Assembly (NCBI GenBank): GCA_028293825.1
Contig: JAQGNY010000026.1
Span: forward strand, 1 to 64,000
Source of the DNA: Verrucomicrobiaceae bacterium
Lineage (GTDB): Bacteria > Pseudomonadota > Gammaproteobacteria > Pseudomonadales > CAMLJR01
Length of the DNA: 64,000 bases
Direction of reading: 5' to 3'
Positions 1 through 37,592 of this stretch are shown here, one piece after another. Numbering within the stretch: position 1 is the stretch's first letter; every line of letters starts with the position of its first letter. The notes under the pieces were generated by a model. The model worked only from the letters and a program-made list of their open reading frames with translations, ran no database searches and was not told where the DNA came from. The position numbers were made by a program, and so were the translations under genes.

Positions 1-1667
<1,667 letters not shown>

Positions 1668-1778: not shown

Positions 1779-2168
1779 ATGGCTAAACACAGTAAAAACA
1801 TCCCGGCCCGCGGTCTGCGCGTGGCTGACCAGATTCAACGCGATCTGGCTGAAATCATTTCCTTCGAGCTGAAAGATCCGCGCGTCGGCATGATCACCAT
1901 TACCGAAGTGCAGATCACGCCCGATTATGCGCATGCGAAGGTATTCTTCACCATGCTCAGTGATAACAAGGATGATATCCGCAACACCATCGAGGGCCTG
2001 ACGAAGGCCTCCGGCTTCGTCCGCGGCCAGCTCGGGCGCCGGCTGACGATTCATACACTGCCTGAATTGCATTTCATTCATGACACGTCGACTGCGCGCG
2101 GCATGGAATTGTCGAAACTGATCGACGAAGCCAACGCGAGCCGCGCGAAGGATGCGGACGAGGGCTGA
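1779..2168 (+). CDS. rbfA: 30S ribosome-binding factor A
   Basis: Small KH-like protein that binds the 30S subunit during late 16S rRNA maturation and cold adaptation. The protein has 129 residues, normal for the family. It starts [20 protein letters not shown] and contains the family stretch [14 protein letters not shown]. An upstream in-frame ATG at 1710 would add 23 residues unlike any RbfA, while the ATG at 1779 has a GGAG 10 bases upstream, so 1779 is chosen. truB starts 14 bases after the stop. Confidence 0.95.
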
Positions 2169-2182
2169 GGAACAATTCAAAG

Positions 2183-3118
2183 ATGGCAAGTTTCCCATCC
2201 CGAAGAAAACGGGTGCCGGTGCATGGCGTCCTGTTGCTGGATAAACCGGTCGGTCTATCCAGCAACGATGCACTGATCAAGGCCAAGCGGCTGTTGAATG
2301 CGGAAAAGGCCGGCCATACCGGCACGCTCGATCCGTTTGCAACCGGGCTGCTGCCGCTGTGTTTTGGCGAAGCGACCAAATTTGCGCAAGACCTGCTCGA
2401 CGCGGACAAGACCTATGACACGGTAGTGCATCTGGGCGTCGCGACGACCACCGGCGATACCGAAGGCGAGATACTCGCTTCTTGCCAAGTCGATGTCGCG
2501 ATGGAACAGATTGCCGCGGTCCTTGAACGCTTCCGCGGTGAAATCGATCAGGTGCCGCCTATGTATTCTGCTCTGAAGCGCGACGGCAAGCCGCTGTATG
2601 AATATGCGCGCGCCGGCGTGACGCTCGAGCGGGAAGCCCGCCGCGTCACCATTCATGCACTTGAATTGCTCGATTACCAAGCCCCATTCCTGAGCCTGCG
2701 AGTCGCTTGCAGCAAGGGTACCTATATCCGTGTCCTGGGCGAGGATATCGGCAACGCGCTCGGCTGCGGCGCTCACCTGCGCGCATTGCGCCGTATCGCG
2801 GTCGGCGATCTCTCGCTGGCCGGGGCACTTACTATCGAAGCCTTGACCGACCTGCCGGAAACCGGGCGCGCCGCGCGGCTGGCGCCGGTAGATGCGTTGT
2901 TATCCACATTTCCCGCCATTTCGCTGGGAGCGGATCTGGCGCAGCGGTTTTTGCACGGCCAGCGCCTTGCGCTCGGCAAGGAAGGCATGTCAATCCCGCA
3001 CCAGGAGGGCAGGGTGCGCGTGTATCGCGCAGCCGATGGCCAACTGCTCGGAACCGGGCAGATCAAGGAATTCGGCGTGCTGGCTCCGGAGCGGCTGGTT
3101 CACCAGGCAATGCCATAG
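2183..3118 (+). CDS. truB: tRNA pseudouridine(55) synthase
   Basis: Makes pseudouridine 55 in the T-loop of tRNAs. It has 311 residues, usual for gammaproteobacterial TruB. The catalytic motif GHTGTLDPFATG is present with the nucleophile Asp at about residue 50. A C-terminal PUA-like part follows (RVYRAADGQLLGTGQI). It is 14 bases downstream of rbfA and has a GAGG sequence before its ATG, so the three genes probably share a transcript. The usual next genes, rpsO and pnp, are not here; typA follows instead. Confidence 0.96.
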   Translation: MASFPSRRKRVPVHGVLLLDKPVGLSSNDALIKAKRLLNAEKAGHTGTLDPFATGLLPLCFGEATKFAQDLLDADKTYDTVVHLGVATTTGDTEGEILASCQVDVAMEQIAAVLERFRGEIDQVPPMYSALKRDGKPLYEYARAGVTLEREARRVTIHALELLDYQAPFLSLRVACSKGTYIRVLGEDIGNALGCGAHLRALRRIAVGDLSLAGALTIEALTDLPETGRAARLAPVDALLSTFPAISLGADLAQRFLHGQRLALGKEGMSIPHQEGRVRVYRAADGQLLGTGQIKEFGVLAPERLVHQAMP

Positions 3119-3223
3119 GGCCAACGGTCAATATTCCATATGTCCGCGGCTTTCCCACTGTGGCGTAATTGCAAGCAACTCTTTGAAATACCACGCCTTT
3201 TCTAAAATTCGTGCGTCGCAGCA

Positions 3224-5137: not shown

Positions 5138-6768
5138 CACGCGCGCTGCAGAATCTCTCGGCAAGCAGTTCCTGCCGGCAACACGCCATACGCAAAACCT
5201 CCCACACCGTTTAATCGCGATTCGATAAAGGCTTCGGCATTTATTGTCGGCGCATACCGCAGCATCAAACTCGACTGCAGCAATAAGGCTAACGTTTCGA
5301 CTAAGCGGCGCGCCTGGTTTTCCAGCGCAGCGGTTTTTGTCAGCAATTTTTTAACTGTGTCGACCGCGCGTGCGATACGTACGTCTTGCACCGCAACGCC
5401 AATTTCAGCGAGCAGCAGCGTCAAACTATTTGGCTCGCGCGCCAGCGCGCGCAGCACATCGAGACAAATCACATTGCCCGAGCCTTCCCAAATACTGTTG
5501 AGCGGCGCTTCGCGATATAAACGCGGCAATAGCGATTCCTCGACATAACCGTTACCACCCAAACACTCCATTGCCTCATAGACTAAATTTGGCGTGCGTT
5601 TATTCACCCAATATTTTCCGATGGCAACGGCGATACGCGCGAATTGCGCAGCGTCTGCATCGTGCGCCGCTTCGTCGTAAGCGCGCGCGATACGCAGCGT
5701 CAACAACAGCGCCGCTTCCGATTCCAACGCCATATCGGCAAGTACGTTTTGCATCAGCGGCTGCTCGATCAAACGCTTGCCGAATGCGCTGCGATAATTT
5801 GCATGATGCGCGGCCTGCACAAAAGCCTGGCGCATTAGCGCAGCAGCAGCGAGACAGGTATCGAGCCGCGTGTGATGCACCATTTCCAAAATTGTTTTAA
5901 CGCCGTGCCCTTCTTCGCCGAGCAATTGCGCAAATGTATTGCTGTATTCAATCTCTGCGGAAGCGTTCGCGCGATTGCTCAACTTATCTTTCAAGCGTTG
6001 AATAAAAAAATGATCGCGCGTGTTATCGGGCTGCCAGCGCGGCACGAAAAAACACGTTAAGCCGCGTTCGGTTTGCGCCAGCGTTAAAAATGCATCGCTC
6101 ATCGGTGCCGAGCAAAACCATTTGTGTCCTGTTAATCGATATTCGCTCGCGGAAATTTTTTGCGCGCGTGTGGTGTTTGCACGCACATCGGAACCGCCCT
6201 GCTTTTCCGTCATCGCCATGCCGATTGTCAGCGCGCTCTTCTCTGAAAACGGTAGTACGGCCGCGTCGTAATCATTGGCGAGAATTTTCGGCAGCCACGT
6301 ATTCGCAAGATCTGCGTGGCGACCCAAAACTGGAATTGCGGCATATGTCATCGTCATCGGGCAACACACGCCAGCCTCGCTCTGCACCAATAAATATTCG
6401 GACGCTGCGTGCGCGACATGACTGCCGCCGCTCCATGCCATCGAATGAATACCGGCACTTAACCCGAGCTGCATTAACCCGTGATAGGCGGGATGAAATT
6501 CGACTTCATCGATACGTTGGCCGAAGCGATTAAATGTTTTTAATTGCGGTGGGAAGCGGTTGGCCAATTCGCCGGCTTTGAGAATTTCTTCGGAACCAAC
6601 CTGCGCACCAAAAACAGCGAGGGTGTCGCGCGCCGCTGCGGCACCTTCGCGCTGCAGGCCTTCGATCAAGGCATTATCGAGTTCGAATAAATTGATATTT
6701 TCGAGCGGCGGCGGTTGATTGCTCACCGCGTGTGTCGGCAATTGCGTGATAGGAGAGTATGTGGCCAT
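5122..6768 (-). CDS. aidB: AidB-type acyl-CoA dehydrogenase of the adaptive response
   Basis: FAD flavoprotein related to isovaleryl-CoA dehydrogenases. In E. coli AidB is induced by Ada, binds DNA and protects against alkylation. The product has 548 residues, the normal length. Sequence marks include MTEKQGGSDVRAN (substrate/FAD region), ATG-side FNRFGQRIDEVEFHP, the AECLGGNGY-like stretch MECLGGNGYVEES and WEGSGNVICLDVLRAL, all typical of AidB rather than of catabolic dehydrogenases. An AGGAG lies before the ATG. The gene is 35 bases downstream of an unknown gene on the same strand and is probably co-transcribed with it. Confidence 0.9.
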   Translation of the reverse strand: MATYSPITQLPTHAVSNQPPPLENINLFELDNALIEGLQREGAAAARDTLAVFGAQVGSEEILKAGELANRFPPQLKTFNRFGQRIDEVEFHPAYHGLMQLGLSAGIHSMAWSGGSHVAHAASEYLLVQSEAGVCCPMTMTYAAIPVLGRHADLANTWLPKILANDYDAAVLPFSEKSALTIGMAMTEKQGGSDVRANTTRAQKISASEYRLTGHKWFCSAPMSDAFLTLAQTERGLTCFFVPRWQPDNTRDHFFIQRLKDKLSNRANASAEIEYSNTFAQLLGEEGHGVKTILEMVHHTRLDTCLAAAALMRQAFVQAAHHANYRSAFGKRLIEQPLMQNVLADMALESEAALLLTLRIARAYDEAAHDADAAQFARIAVAIGKYWVNKRTPNLVYEAMECLGGNGYVEESLLPRLYREAPLNSIWEGSGNVICLDVLRALAREPNSLTLLLAEIGVAVQDVRIARAVDTVKKLLTKTAALENQARRLVETLALLLQSSLMLRYAPTINAEAFIESRLNGVGGFAYGVLPAGTACREILQRAWPRLN

Positions 6769-8004: not shown

Positions 8005-8022
8005 ACCAAAATAATAAAAAGC

Positions 8023-10212
8023 TCAAGCCAGCATTTGTAAGTTGGCGTACTGCAATACCAACCACTTACTGCCCTCGTCGGAAAAATTCACCTGCACACG
8101 CGCTGCAGCACCGCGTCCTTCGAAATTCAACACCACGCCTTCGCCAAATAATTCGTGATACACGCGTTGCCCTAAATTAATTCCGGTGTGATTTTCGTTG
8201 GGGTTGTTGCCGCTGTAATTATTGTGCGACGACGACACCGGCCGCGTGACGCTGGTTTGCAAGCGTACTTCCTGCAATAATTTTTTCGGAATCTCGCGCA
8301 GAAAGCGCGACGGCGAATGGTAATTATCCTCGCCGTACAAGCGCCGCGATTCGGCGTAAGTTAAAAACAACTTTTCTTTGGCGCGGGTGATGCCGACATA
8401 ACAAAGGCGGCGCTCTTCTTCGAGACGGGTCGGATCGTCCATCGACATTTTGTGCGGAAATAAATTTTCTTCGAGCCCGACGATAAACACGAGCGGAAAT
8501 TCCAAACCCTTCGCCGAGTGCAGCGTCATCAACTGTACGCTGTCTTCAAATTCCGCCGCTTCGTGATCGCCGGAATCGAGCGCAGCCTGATCGAGAAATG
8601 CATTGAGCAGCGGCAGCGTTTCGTCCTCGACCGTGAACGAAGCGGTGGCGATAACTAATTCCTGTAAGTTTTCGACGCGCGCCTGACCTTTCTCGCCTTT
8701 TTCCTGCTTATGAAAATCGATAAGGCCCGAGTGACGCAAGACGTGATCGGTCAATTCATCGAGCGTCATGTCTTTGGTTTCGACATCGAGACGATCGATC
8801 AACTGCAGAAATTGCGACAGTGCATTCGATGCCCGCGCCGGCAACAAATTGTGCGCAATCACTTCGTGCGCGGCGCGCCACATCGACACGCGTTGTTCGC
8901 GCGCAAAATCGCGCACGACTTGAACTGTTTTATCGCCGATGCCGCGCGTCGGTGTATTGATGGTGCGCTCCACGGCGGTGTCGTCGTGGCGATTAATTAA
9001 CAAACGCAAATATGCGACCGCATTTTTAATTTCGAGCCGATCGTAAAAACGCAGGCCGCCGTAAATACGATACGGCACGCCGCTGCGAATCAGCGCTTCT
9101 TCCATCACCCGCGATTGCGCGTTGGAGCGGTACAAAATCGCCGCGCTACTGCGCGCATTGCCGTGCGCAATCCAATCTTGCAAACGCTCGACGACGAAAC
9201 GCGCTTCGTCCATTTCATTGAACGCGGCGTACAGCGAAATCAATTCGCCCTCTTCGCCGCTGGTCCACAATTCTTTACCGAGACGGCCGTTGTTATTCGC
9301 TATCACCGCATTCGCCGCAGCCAGAATGGTCGCCGTCGAGCGGTAATTTTGTTCGAGCCGAACTAATTGCGTGCCGGAAAAATCTTTCGAGAATTGCTGA
9401 ATATTTTCGATGCGCGCACCGCGCCAACCGTAAATCGATTGATCGTCATCGCCGACGGCAGTAATCGGAATGCGATCGCCGGCGAGCACGCGCAGCCATG
9501 CATATTGCACAGCGTTGGTGTCTTGAAACTCATCGACCAACATGTAGCGAAAACGCTGTTGATAATGCTGCAGGATCGCTGGTTTTTTTAACCACAATTC
9601 GTGCGCGCGCAATAACAGCTCGGCGAAATCGACCACGCCCTGACGTTCGCACGCCTGCTCGTAAGCGTGATACACCTTCAACATCATCTGCTGAAAAATA
9701 TCTTTGCTCTGATGATCGAGATGCGCAGCGCGCAGCCCTTCATCTTTTTGCGCATTGATAAACCACTGCGATTGTTTCGGTGGCCAGCGCGCTTCGTCGA
9801 TTTCCAATTCGCGATGAATACGCTTGAGCATGCGCAACTGATCTTCGGAATCGATAATTTGAAAATTATCCGGTAGCCCGGCGTCGGGCGCGTGCGCTTT
9901 TAATAAACGGTGCGCGAGGCCGTGAAAGGTACCGACCCACATGCCGCGCGTACTGATGCCCGTCGCGGCATAGGGGCCGAGCAAATGATCGATACGCTCG
10001 CGCATTTCGCGCGCGGCTTTATTGGTGAACGTCACCGCCAATACGCTGTGCGGCGAAAAACCTTCAGCCTGAATCAGCCACGCGATGCGATGCACCAGCA
10101 CGCGTGTTTTGCCGGAACCGGCACCAGCGAGCACGAGCATGCTGCCGGGGTCGGCAGTGATCGCGGCGCGCTGTGCATCATTGAGATCGTTGAGAATATG
10201 AGAGACATCCAT
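8023..10212 (-). CDS. uvrD: DNA helicase II
   Basis: Superfamily 1 3'-5' helicase acting in nucleotide excision and mismatch repair. It has 729 residues, the UvrD length. Visible motifs are LAGAGSGKT (Walker A, about 28-36), FTNKAAREM, VDEFQDTN, GDDDQSIYGWRGA, QNYRS, LMTLHSAKGLEF and ITRAKEKL. The C-terminal tail GQRVYHELFGEGVVLNFEGRG is specific to UvrD rather than Rep. I found no clear LexA-type CTG-N10-CAG box in the short divergent region before it. Confidence 0.95.
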   Translation of the reverse strand: MDVSHILNDLNDAQRAAITADPGSMLVLAGAGSGKTRVLVHRIAWLIQAEGFSPHSVLAVTFTNKAAREMRERIDHLLGPYAATGISTRGMWVGTFHGLAHRLLKAHAPDAGLPDNFQIIDSEDQLRMLKRIHRELEIDEARWPPKQSQWFINAQKDEGLRAAHLDHQSKDIFQQMMLKVYHAYEQACERQGVVDFAELLLRAHELWLKKPAILQHYQQRFRYMLVDEFQDTNAVQYAWLRVLAGDRIPITAVGDDDQSIYGWRGARIENIQQFSKDFSGTQLVRLEQNYRSTATILAAANAVIANNNGRLGKELWTSGEEGELISLYAAFNEMDEARFVVERLQDWIAHGNARSSAAILYRSNAQSRVMEEALIRSGVPYRIYGGLRFYDRLEIKNAVAYLRLLINRHDDTAVERTINTPTRGIGDKTVQVVRDFAREQRVSMWRAAHEVIAHNLLPARASNALSQFLQLIDRLDVETKDMTLDELTDHVLRHSGLIDFHKQEKGEKGQARVENLQELVIATASFTVEDETLPLLNAFLDQAALDSGDHEAAEFEDSVQLMTLHSAKGLEFPLVFIVGLEENLFPHKMSMDDPTRLEEERRLCYVGITRAKEKLFLTYAESRRLYGEDNYHSPSRFLREIPKKLLQEVRLQTSVTRPVSSSHNNYSGNNPNENHTGINLGQRVYHELFGEGVVLNFEGRGAAARVQVNFSDEGSKWLVLQYANLQMLA

Positions 10213-34031: not shown

Positions 34032-34676
34032 ATGGAAGAGTCCGAAAGCCTTACGATCGATTATCGCCGCGCGCGCTTTTTAAAAAGCGCCCCGACGCTG
34101 CGCGAGTGCCCGCCAGACAGCGGCGCCGAAGTGGCTTTTGCCGGCCGCTCCAATGCGGGCAAGTCCAGCGCGATCAATGCGCTCACCGATAACCACAAAC
34201 TGGCGCGCACCAGTAAAACGCCCGGACGCACGCAGCTGCTGAATTTTTTCGAACTGGACGACTTGCATCGCCTGGTGGATTTGCCCGGTTACGGCTTCGC
34301 CAAAGTGCCGCTTGCGGTCAAACAGGAGTGGCAGCGCCATCTGGAGAAATATCTGAGCGATCGCGCCAGCTTGCGCGGCTTGATTCTGCTGATGGACGTG
34401 CGCCACCCGCTGCAGCCGTTCGACACGCTGCTGCTGGATTGGGCAGCTCAATGCAAAATGCCGACGCATATTCTTTTGACGAAAGCCGATAAGCTGAACT
34501 TCGGCACCGCAAAAACCGCTTTGCTCGGCATTGAAAAAGCACTGAAGGGACGACGCGGCCTGACCGCGACTGCGCAATTATTTTCGTCGCTGAACAAAAT
34601 GGGCTTGGAAGAGCTACAACAGCGATTGAATAGCTGGCTGCTGCAGGAAGTGGAAATCGAAGTAGCACCAGAATAG
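34032..34676 (+). CDS. engB: Ribosome biogenesis GTPase EngB (YsxC/YihA)
   Basis: Small essential GTPase for 50S assembly. It has 214 residues with GRSNAGKSS (G1), the G2 [17 protein letters not shown] (G3) and TKADKL (G4). It converges on polA across a 171-bp gap that probably holds a small RNA, the same arrangement as polA-spf-yihA in E. coli. Confidence 0.95.
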
Positions 34677-34691
34677 AAAGCGGCGACGGAA

Positions 34692-34734
34692 TAAAAAAAG
34701 CCCAGTGCGCTTTTGGGGAATTACGCACCGGGCT
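34692..34734 (-). terminator. Strong terminator of polA or of the candidate small RNA
   Basis: An 11-bp stem with one G-U pair (34724-34734 with 34699-34709), a 14-nt loop and a run of seven T on the minus strand. Confidence 0.8.
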
Positions 34735-34811
34735 ACCAGCTCTTCTGGGAAAACACTGGGGAATACTGTCTGAGCCCTTGGATTACTCAGCCAGCAATGG
34801 CAAACGCCACG
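34692..34811 (-). ncRNA. Candidate small RNA after polA (Spot 42/ErsA position)
   Basis: The gap between polA and convergent engB contains, on the polA strand, a sigma-E/AlgU-like promoter and a strong terminator about 120 bases apart, with no ORF. Position and strand match spf in E. coli and ersA in Pseudomonas. The predicted RNA has C-rich single-strand candidates (UUCCCC near 34761, UUUUCCC near 34750 and UUCCCC in the terminator loop near 34716) that could pair with ribosome binding sites. No homology was checked, and it could instead be the polA 3' untranslated region. Confidence 0.55.
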
Positions 34812-34816
34812 TAAGC

Positions 34817-34843
34817 TGTGACTCGCCCAGTTTTTAAAAGTTT
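34817..34843 (-). promoter_or_regulatory. Candidate sigma-E/AlgU-type promoter
   Basis: On the minus strand AAACTT (34843-34838), 15 bases, GTCACA (34822-34817), close to the extracytoplasmic sigma-E pattern GAACTT-N15/16-GTCtaA. It starts five bases after the polA stop and would initiate near 34811. Confidence 0.4.
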
Positions 34844-34847
34844 CAAC

Positions 34848-37592
34848 TCAATGCGCTTCATCCCAGTTGTTGCCGGAGCGCGCCTCCACCAATAAGGGCA
34901 CCGCCAGCGCAACCGCATTGCTCATGCGTTGCTTAACCTGCGGCAAGAACCATTCGACCTGATCGGCGGCAACCTCAAACACCAGCTCATCGTGCACCTG
35001 CATAATCATGCGCGCATCCAACTGCTCGGCACTAAGCCATGCATCAACCCCAATCATCGCTTTCTTGATAATGTCCGCCGCCGTCCCCTGCATCGGCGCA
35101 TTGATGGCAGCGCGCTCCGCACCCTGCCGGCGCTGTGCATTGCTCGCGTTGATCTCAGGCAAATAGAGGCGGCGCCCGAACAGGGTTTCGACATAACCCA
35201 GCCGTGCAGCTTCCGTTCGCGTGCGATCCATAAAATCTTTAACGCCCGGGTAGCGCGCGAAATACAGCTCGATGTAGGTCTGCGCCTCGCCGCGCGCGAT
35301 ATCGAGCTGACGCGCCAATCCAAACGCTGACATGCCGTAAATCAAACCGAAGTTGATGGCTTTAGCGCGCCGGCGCTGCTCGCCGGAAACGGTGTCGAGA
35401 CTCGCGCCGAACACTTCAGCGGCCGTGGCGCGGTGGATGTCCTCCCCCAGCGCGAATGCTTTCAACAAGCCAGCGTCCGCCGACAGGTGCGCCATGATCC
35501 GCAGCTCAATTTGCGAATAGTCCGCCGCCACGATGCGATAGCCGGGCGCTGCGATAAATGCTTGCCGAATCCGGCGACCCTCGGCGTTGCGCACTGGGAT
35601 ATTTTGCAGATTCGGGTCCGACGACGACAGCCGCCCAGTCGCCGCCACCGCTTGGTGATAGGACGTATGGATGCGGCCGGTGCGCGGACTGATCATTTCC
35701 GGTAGCTTATCGGTATAGGTCGATTTTAATTTCGACAGGCCGCGGTACTCCATCAACAGACGCGGCAGCGGGTATTCGTCCGCCAGCTCCGCCAACACAT
35801 CTTCGGCAGTCGATGGCACGCCGGTTGGCGTCTTGCGAATTACCGGGATGCCCAGCTTGACGTAGAGAATCTCGCCCAGTTGTTTCGGAGAGCCCAAATT
35901 GAATTTCTGCCCGGCCAAATCGTAGGCCTGCTGTTCGAGTTCCAGCAGCCGCAATCCCAGTTCGTGGCTTTGCTGGGAAAGCAATTCACGACTGACCAGC
36001 GCGCCGTTGCGCTCTATCCGCGACAGCACCGGCACCAACGGCATGTCGATATCTTCGAACACCGACAACAGCGAAGGCTCGGCCTGCAATTTCGGCCATA
36101 GCGCTTGATGCAGTTGCAGCGTGATATCCGCATCTTCAGCCGCGTATTCACCAGCCAACTCGATCGCCACCTGACTAAATCCGATCTGCTTGGCGCCCTT
36201 CCCGGCCACGGCTTCATAAGGAATGGTGGTGATGCCGAGATATTTCAGCGCGAGGCTATCCATATCGTGGCGCGTCGCCACCGCGTCCAACACATACGAT
36301 TCCAACATGGTGTCGCAAGCAATTCCGCGCAGTTCGATACCGTGATTGGCCAGCACGCTTTGATCGTATTTGAGGTTTTGGCCAACCTTGAGGCGCAACG
36401 GATCCTCCAGCAGCGGCTTCATCAAGGCGAGCACTTGTTCGCGATTAAGCTGCCCCGGAGCGCCGGGATAGTCGTGCGTTAACGGGATGTAGGCGGCCTC
36501 GCCAGCATTTATAGCGAAGGAAACGCCCACGATTTCCGCCCGCATGTAATCGAGGCTGGTGGTTTCGGTATCAAAGGCAAACAGCTCGGCTTGCTGCAAC
36601 CGCCGCAACCAGGAATCCAACTGCTCGAGTGTGAATATGGTTTCGTAATTACGTAGCGGCTTGGCGGCGGAGGTAATGTCTTCAGCGGCATGCTCAGAAT
36701 CCACCTTCAGTTCTGTTTCGACCAGCTCGGCCACCCAGGTTTTAAACTCGAGCTGCTGATACACGTCCATCAATTCGGCGCGATCCATCGGCCCGAGCGC
36801 CAGATCCGCAATAGTGAAAGGCAACTCGACATCGCACTTAATCGTCGCCAATTGCTGCGACAGATAGGCATTTTCGCGCTCGGCCTCAAGCTTGGCAGCC
36901 AGGCTTTTCGCGCCGCGAACGCTCAGAGCCGCAATTTTGTCGAGATTGCGATAGAGCTCATCGAGACCGCCGATCTCGGTAAGAAGCGGTACTGCTGTTT
37001 TCTCGCCGACGCCGCTGACGCCGGGAATGTTGTCGGAGGTATCGCCTACCAACGCCAAGTAGTCAACGATTTGGGAGGGGGGCACGCCGAACTTGGTGAC
37101 TACGCCAGCCTCATCCAAGGTCGTGTTGGTCATGGTATTTATCAGACTGATGTAAGTGCTCACTAACTGCGCCATGTCCTTATCACCAGTGGAGATCACC
37201 ACCGGGAGCGCATTTTTAGCCGCGGAACACGCCAGGGTGCCAATAACGTCATCGGCCTCCACGCCATCAATAACGATTAGCGGCAAGCCCAGCGCGCGAA
37301 CAATGCGGTGGATCGGCTCTATTTGCAGACGCAAATCGTCGGGCATAGGCGGGCGATGTGCTTTGTACTGCGCGAATAGCTCATCGCGAAAAGTTTTGCC
37401 TTTGGCATCGAATACCACGGCCAGCGGACTGCCGGGAAAATCTTTTTGCAGTCGCCTCAACATGTTAATCACGCCTTTCACGGCGCCGGTTGGCTGGCCT
37501 TTTGAGTTATTCAGCGGCGGCAGTGCATGAAATGCGCGGTAAAGGTAGGACGAGCCGTCAACAAGGACGAGCGGAAGAGGCTGATCAGTCAT
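34848..37592 (-). CDS. polA: DNA polymerase I
   Basis: Three-domain polymerase of 914 residues, full length. It has the 5'-nuclease ([37 protein letters not shown]), an intact proofreading exonuclease ([24 protein letters not shown]) and the polymerase domain ([38 protein letters not shown]). It acts in Okazaki fragment processing and repair. Confidence 0.97.

Follow-up and report, generated by a model that had tools for sequence, protein, structure and literature searches.

The stretch of DNA analysed here (the window, 64,000 nucleotides) lies on contig 34 of a genome of 4.34 Mb, and in it polA and engB converge on a 171-base gap. The polA stop codon TGA (34850-34848, minus strand) is followed by GTTG, and the minus strand as a whole reads TGA-GTTGAAACTT-N15-GTCACA, about 120 nt, AGCCCGGUGCG-UAAUUCCCCAAAAG-CGCACUGGGCU and seven T. 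The features of the locus, in the order in which the minus strand is read, are as follows:

34848-37592, minus strand: polA, assigned by sequence homology to polA of other genomes; the same-strand neighbour upstream of the RNA
34838-34844, minus strand: -35-like element GAAACTT of the sigma-E/AlgU type; mostly GAACTT in relatives
34817-34822, minus strand: -10-like element GTCACA, 15 nt after AAACTT
34693-34811, minus strand: predicted small RNA of about 119 nt, its 5' end placed by reference to the -10 element and to SL1, whose position is fixed
34797-34810, minus strand: SL1, GUGGC-GUUU-GCCAU, starting exactly 9 nt after GTC
34764-34796, minus strand: SL2, a predicted hairpin; Halieaceae-like relatives have one of different sequence
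34763-34758, minus strand: C-rich site 1, UUCCCC, between SL2 and SL3
34736-34759, minus strand: SL3, CCAGUGUUUUCCCAGAAGAGCUGG, a predicted fold that holds C-rich site 2
34753-34747, minus strand: C-rich site 2, UUUUCCC, in SL3
34699-34734, minus strand: SL4, intrinsic terminator hairpin, AGCCCGGUGCG...CGCACUGGGCU, 11-12 bp
34720-34715, minus strand: C-rich site 3, UUCCCC, in the apical loop of SL4
34693-34699, minus strand: run of seven U (seven T in the DNA), directly after SL4
34032-34676, plus strand: engB (yihA/ysxC GTPase), the convergent neighbour, which adjoins polA in relatives (tblastn)

An earlier note on this DNA had pointed to AAACTT-N15-GTCACA five bases past the polA stop, and this is present, AAACTT being part of GAAACTT (34844-34838) and GTCACA lying at 34822-34817. 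The note had also described about 120 nt without an ORF, followed by an 11-bp stem and seven T; all of these are there, with the correction that a spurious-looking frame starts in the terminator region. This 136-aa GTG frame (34318-34728, minus strand) is antisense to engB and is probably spurious. The three C-rich stretches that the earlier note named were likewise found, with unpaired probabilities of 0.80 for the TTCCC of site 1, 0.47 for site 2, which is only partly unpaired, and 0.89 for site 3. For the predicted RNA, the folding energy is -48.7 kcal/mol, compared with -33.9 in shuffles.

The -35 box in the window is one base away from GGAACTT, and the identical variant occurs in another lineage (L219, GAAACTT-N15-GTCATA). 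The pattern GAAACTT-N15-GTCANA has a single occurrence in the window and 0 matches in 100 shuffles. The looser [GA]AACTT-N14-16-GTC has five sites on both strands of 464 kb of the host genome, only one of which, that in the polA-engB gap, has a hairpin and U-run within the next 190 nt. Across the host genome, GAAACTT-N15/16-GTC was not enriched: it matched 9 times and its reversed control 20 times, and the promoter box alone therefore proves nothing. The gap site was not reported by a generic promoter and terminator scan, because that scanner covers sigma-70 promoters and loops of up to 8 nt, and the gap terminator loop is 12-14 nt. The host rpoE gene is itself preceded, upstream of its likely start codon, by GAACTT-N15-GTCTA, with the same N15 spacing as in the window.

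To place the gap in a wider context, polA-downstream sequence was gathered from about 200 genomes, and motifs were counted in 84 convergent polA/engB gaps that were 120 nt or longer. GAAC[TC]-N16-18-TC[ACT] was present in 62 of the 84 (dinucleotide shuffles: mean 5.8, maximum 13), with a sharp peak of GAAC-to-TC spacing at 17-18, although these counts are not independent events because the sample holds many Pseudomonas species. When other families were represented by one genome each, 12 of 16 convergent gaps carried the motif, in the same layout as elsewhere: downstream of it come roughly 100-150 nt with hairpins, and then a terminator. GTRG, the start of SL1, was found exactly 9 nt past GTC at 13 of 63 promoter-like sites, the window being one of the 13, and at any other offset no more than twice. 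SL1 of relatives at the equal position reads GUAGC...GCUAC or GUGGC...GCCAC, and its pairs vary on both sides among relatives. Because SL1 sits at a fixed 9 nt from GTC, transcription would be expected to start a few bases ahead of SL1, in line with a start near 34811. The 75 RNAs examined contained 110 motifs of the T[TC]CCC type, where shuffles gave 68 (maximum 81), and these motifs were mostly unpaired, with a probability of 0.78 compared with 0.45 for all C. The Pseudomonas loci that Rfam calls ErsA are among the gaps that have the box, the spacing, the 9-nt distance to the first hairpin, the C-rich loops and the terminator in common with the window.

Covariation, a check proposed in the earlier note, is seen in the gaps of relatives. 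L022 is the single same-genus relative compared, the host family being represented, apart from the host, by one genome (G001), which is of the same genus. Against it, ten of ten compared SL4 pairs are kept, with four compensatory and two one-sided changes, while the terminator loop UAAUUCCCC is identical in the two; SL3 shows one compensatory change. A covariance model made from five Halieaceae-like RNAs, none of the window's genus (R1; SL2 is absent from it), gave one match only in the window, 34816-34693 (minus strand; 35.7 bits, E 1.5e-7), driven mainly by the terminator, and none in a further 400 kb of the host genome. In an R1 alignment of 41 relatives, pairing is kept in 94.7% of cells, and changes on both sides are seen at 20 of 21 pairs; the covariation score was 0.72, against 0.18 when shuffled and at most 0.12 when slid, the alignment being fitted to the R1 model, which favours this score.

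How far the R1 match extends was judged from two further searches. On Pseudomonas ErsA loci R1 made local matches via the terminator only, and a second model, of SL1-SL3 without the terminator (R2), had no match in the window and none in other families. We therefore rejected the reading of the R1 match as full-length homology. Because R2 misses the window, the covariance models do not establish that the window RNA is homologous to the Halieaceae-like RNAs over its full length; the case for homology is built on position, promoter, the fixed distance to SL1 and the C-rich loops. Apart from short chance matches, a direct nucleotide search in relatives returned only the coding sequence of polA, and MAFFT with RNAalifold on mixed relatives recovered the terminator only, because SL2 and SL3 vary in length.

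These results bear on whether the hairpin might be just the terminator of polA (and engB), with the rest of the gap an unconstrained spacer. In favour of this, the flanking genes converge, SL4 makes a good intrinsic terminator, and it dominates the R1 match; but a spacer would hardly keep the promoter spacing and the distance to SL1 fixed in many lineages, or keep a C-rich loop that is identical in L022 while the stem arms around it change. The fold (z -4.29) also argues against it, as does the lack of any R1 match in 400 kb of a host genome with many genes and terminators, and we regard this explanation as unlikely. A further argument against it comes from L028, in which the RNA unit is split from polA by another gene: a 289-aa opposite-strand ORF (2097-2966, minus strand) has polA on one side and the RNA (3021-3146) on the other, and the promoter of the RNA (GAACTC-N15-GTC) is intact, as are its hairpins. 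The ORF reads like MtfA.

Since an opposite-strand gene sits between the two, the L028 RNA is not simply the 3' end of polA. Read-through from polA as the only source of RNA, which the earlier note had raised as an objection, is thus opposed by the arrangement in L028; for the window RNA itself, we infer independence from read-through. An RNA derived from the polA 3'UTR through read-through and RNase processing, without a promoter of its own, would fit the short distance of 37 nt from the end of polA to the predicted start, and a -35 box one base from consensus, and 3'UTR-derived sRNAs are common. It is less probable again, given that the sigma-E-type promoter is conserved in 62 of 84 gaps and that in L028 polA read-through would have to cross the opposite-strand gene.

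When the window was compared with known RNA families, the Rfam search gave no match, and at E≤10 across the gap it gave chance matches only. Neither family that the earlier note had singled out for this check was found, as both ErsA (RF01719, Pseudomon-1) and Spot 42 (RF00021) had no window match at gathering or at E≤10. This negative is informative because both families are recovered elsewhere by the identical search, ErsA from Pseudomonas gaps and Spot 42 from the Klebsiella polA-engB gap. Pseudomonas-type gaps that served as positive controls for RF01719 (L109, L062, L025, L060, L069, L076, L095 and L111) scored 58-135 bits, and L128 matched Spot 42 at 125 bits. The GTDB order of the host includes genomes with Pseudomonas-type ErsA (L025, from G021, is one that matches RF01719), and is for this reason very likely Pseudomonadales. 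Spot 42, which is repressed by cAMP-CRP, has the same locus and strand as the window RNA but differs in that its gaps are without the sigma-E-type motif in this sample.

On these searches the window RNA does not fall within RF01719. The suggestion that it is an ErsA relative holds for location, strand and promoter sequence, and fails on the lack of an RF01719 match at E≤10 and of domain II. Both RNAs lie in the polA-engB gap on the polA strand; both have a sigma-E/AlgU-type promoter sequence of equal spacing class, the window sequence being one base off GGAACTT; and both are about 120-130 nt long and end in a terminator hairpin whose loop is C-rich. Between its SL1 and SL2, ErsA has an unstructured, U-rich stretch of about 34 nt, domain II (PMC8575079); this stretch is not seen in the window, where a predicted extra hairpin (SL2) and a C-rich linker take its place. 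ErsA is 132 nt and strictly sigma-22 dependent (PMC7565897); its gene is in the region of polA and engB, and it has several mRNA targets, anr being a case in which it acts with Hfq (PMC8575079). In Xanthomonas the polA-adjacent sX13, with homologues mainly in Xanthomonadaceae, uses C-rich loops to repress mRNAs that have G-rich motifs near their start sites, and this repression does not need Hfq (PMC3771888). Compared by description, the window RNA is like sX13 in being polA-adjacent and in having several stem-loops that expose C-rich motifs, but sX13 has three stem-loops, whereas the window has four hairpins, with two clear C-rich loops and a linker. Anti-hemB, or Burkholderia RNA 7 (RF02837), matched the L231 RNA (1221-1322, minus strand, in a polA-engB gap) and the L236 RNA (1292-1381, minus strand, polA-downstream) but not the window; these anti-hemB RNAs have a sigma-E-type box and C-rich loops, as in the window. 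The two matches tie RF02837 to the polA locus.

The layout common to the gaps of many relatives supports the view of the earlier note that an sRNA gene with an envelope-stress-type promoter lies at the ErsA/Spot 42 locus and on the same strand. From the sequence evidence, we consider it probable that the polA-engB gap holds a real, conserved sRNA gene, and that its product is a sigma-E-dependent base-pairing RNA like ErsA and sX13. The host genome encodes RpoE (317.6 bits, above the cut-off), an RseA_N protein (RseA-like anti-sigma factor) that follows rpoE, and Hfq; the parts for a sigma-E-controlled, Hfq-assisted sRNA therefore exist. In the mechanism that we propose, polymerase carrying RpoE (sigma-E/AlgU) would start near 34811 once envelope stress relieves RseA-type inhibition, and would stop at SL4 and the U-run near 34693. 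The product would be an independently transcribed, trans-acting sRNA of about 119 nt, with C-rich sequence exposed in the linker, the SL3 loop and the terminator loop. By analogy with the studied RNAs, its UUCCCC and UUUUCCC segments would probably pair, in a limited number of mRNAs, with G-rich sequence close to the start codon; translation of these targets would most likely be lowered, and Hfq might act as a partner by way of the U-rich 3' end. Other modes of action or a differing need for Hfq have been reported for ErsA and sX13, and the transfer of mechanism is therefore uncertain.

The C-rich stretches had been thought suited to pairing with Shine-Dalgarno sequences, and for this we obtained no statistical support. 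In a scan of 343 host start regions (464 kb, about 10% of the genome), the duplex energies of the C-rich segments were no better than those of shuffled segments, and GGGGAA occurred in 3 of the 343. A general anti-Shine-Dalgarno role is unsupported because there is no pairing excess in these regions; a small, selective target set is possible. Single candidates with pairing at the ribosome site, which are guesses only, include the triosephosphate isomerase gene (L246:1607-2353), L246:10910-11551, which has no Pfam match, and L254:13802-14695, whose product is uncharacterised and has a signal-like N-terminus. It is very improbable that the RNA acts on a protein, by sponging or titration, and not by mRNA pairing: it is highly structured with repeated loop motifs, and complementarity to host start regions is unenriched, but the motif is C-rich, unlike the GGA of CsrA/RsmA-binding RNAs. 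The closest studied RNAs of the locus, ErsA and sX13, moreover act on mRNAs (PMC3771888; PMC8575079).

A base-pairing sRNA in the window would be one case of a wider pattern, in which a sigma-E-type promoter and a C-rich RNA with many hairpins recur at the polA-engB locus, the majority of these RNAs lying outside Rfam. The window RNA most likely belongs to a group of C-rich-loop RNAs at the polA locus in many gammaproteobacteria, few of which are known to databases. The pattern links RNAs that were named separately in Pseudomonas, Burkholderia and Xanthomonas, and gives a defined set of loci for asking whether a shared RNA mechanism couples envelope stress to translation outside the enteric model. 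A literature search found no paper naming both sX13 and ErsA; most subscription journals were outside its scope, and we therefore describe the cross-family pattern of sigma-E-type promoters and C-rich RNAs at polA-engB as new only provisionally. More tentatively, a sigma-E-driven C-rich-loop sRNA gene might be ancient at polA-engB, dating from early in the history of Gammaproteobacteria (as GTDB defines the class, Burkholderiales included), with ErsA, anti-hemB RNA, sX13 and the window RNA as its descendants and Spot 42 as a rewired descendant or a replacement; we think this possible, but rather doubtful.

Several polA-downstream regions depart from the simple layout. The polA-engB gaps of L046, L053, L179 and L181 have a conserved structured segment (GGAGACTTGTCTCCCCCTG...CTCC) and a terminator; because the GAAC box is missing there, these RNAs may be transcribed via another sigma factor. 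L113 (Microbulbifer-type) has several weak R1 matches downstream of polA (5867-5988, 8316-8425 and 8020-8114), with no clear sigma-E-type box. Tandem units of promoter and C-rich RNA occur downstream of polA in L045, with three GGAACTT-type boxes and RNAs at 1262-1396, 1050-1187 and 766-883 (minus strand), and in L048 and L036, with two boxes each, the L048 RNAs lying at 2256-2333, 2407-2544 and 2574-2697; these tandem units resemble multi-copy sRNA arrays.
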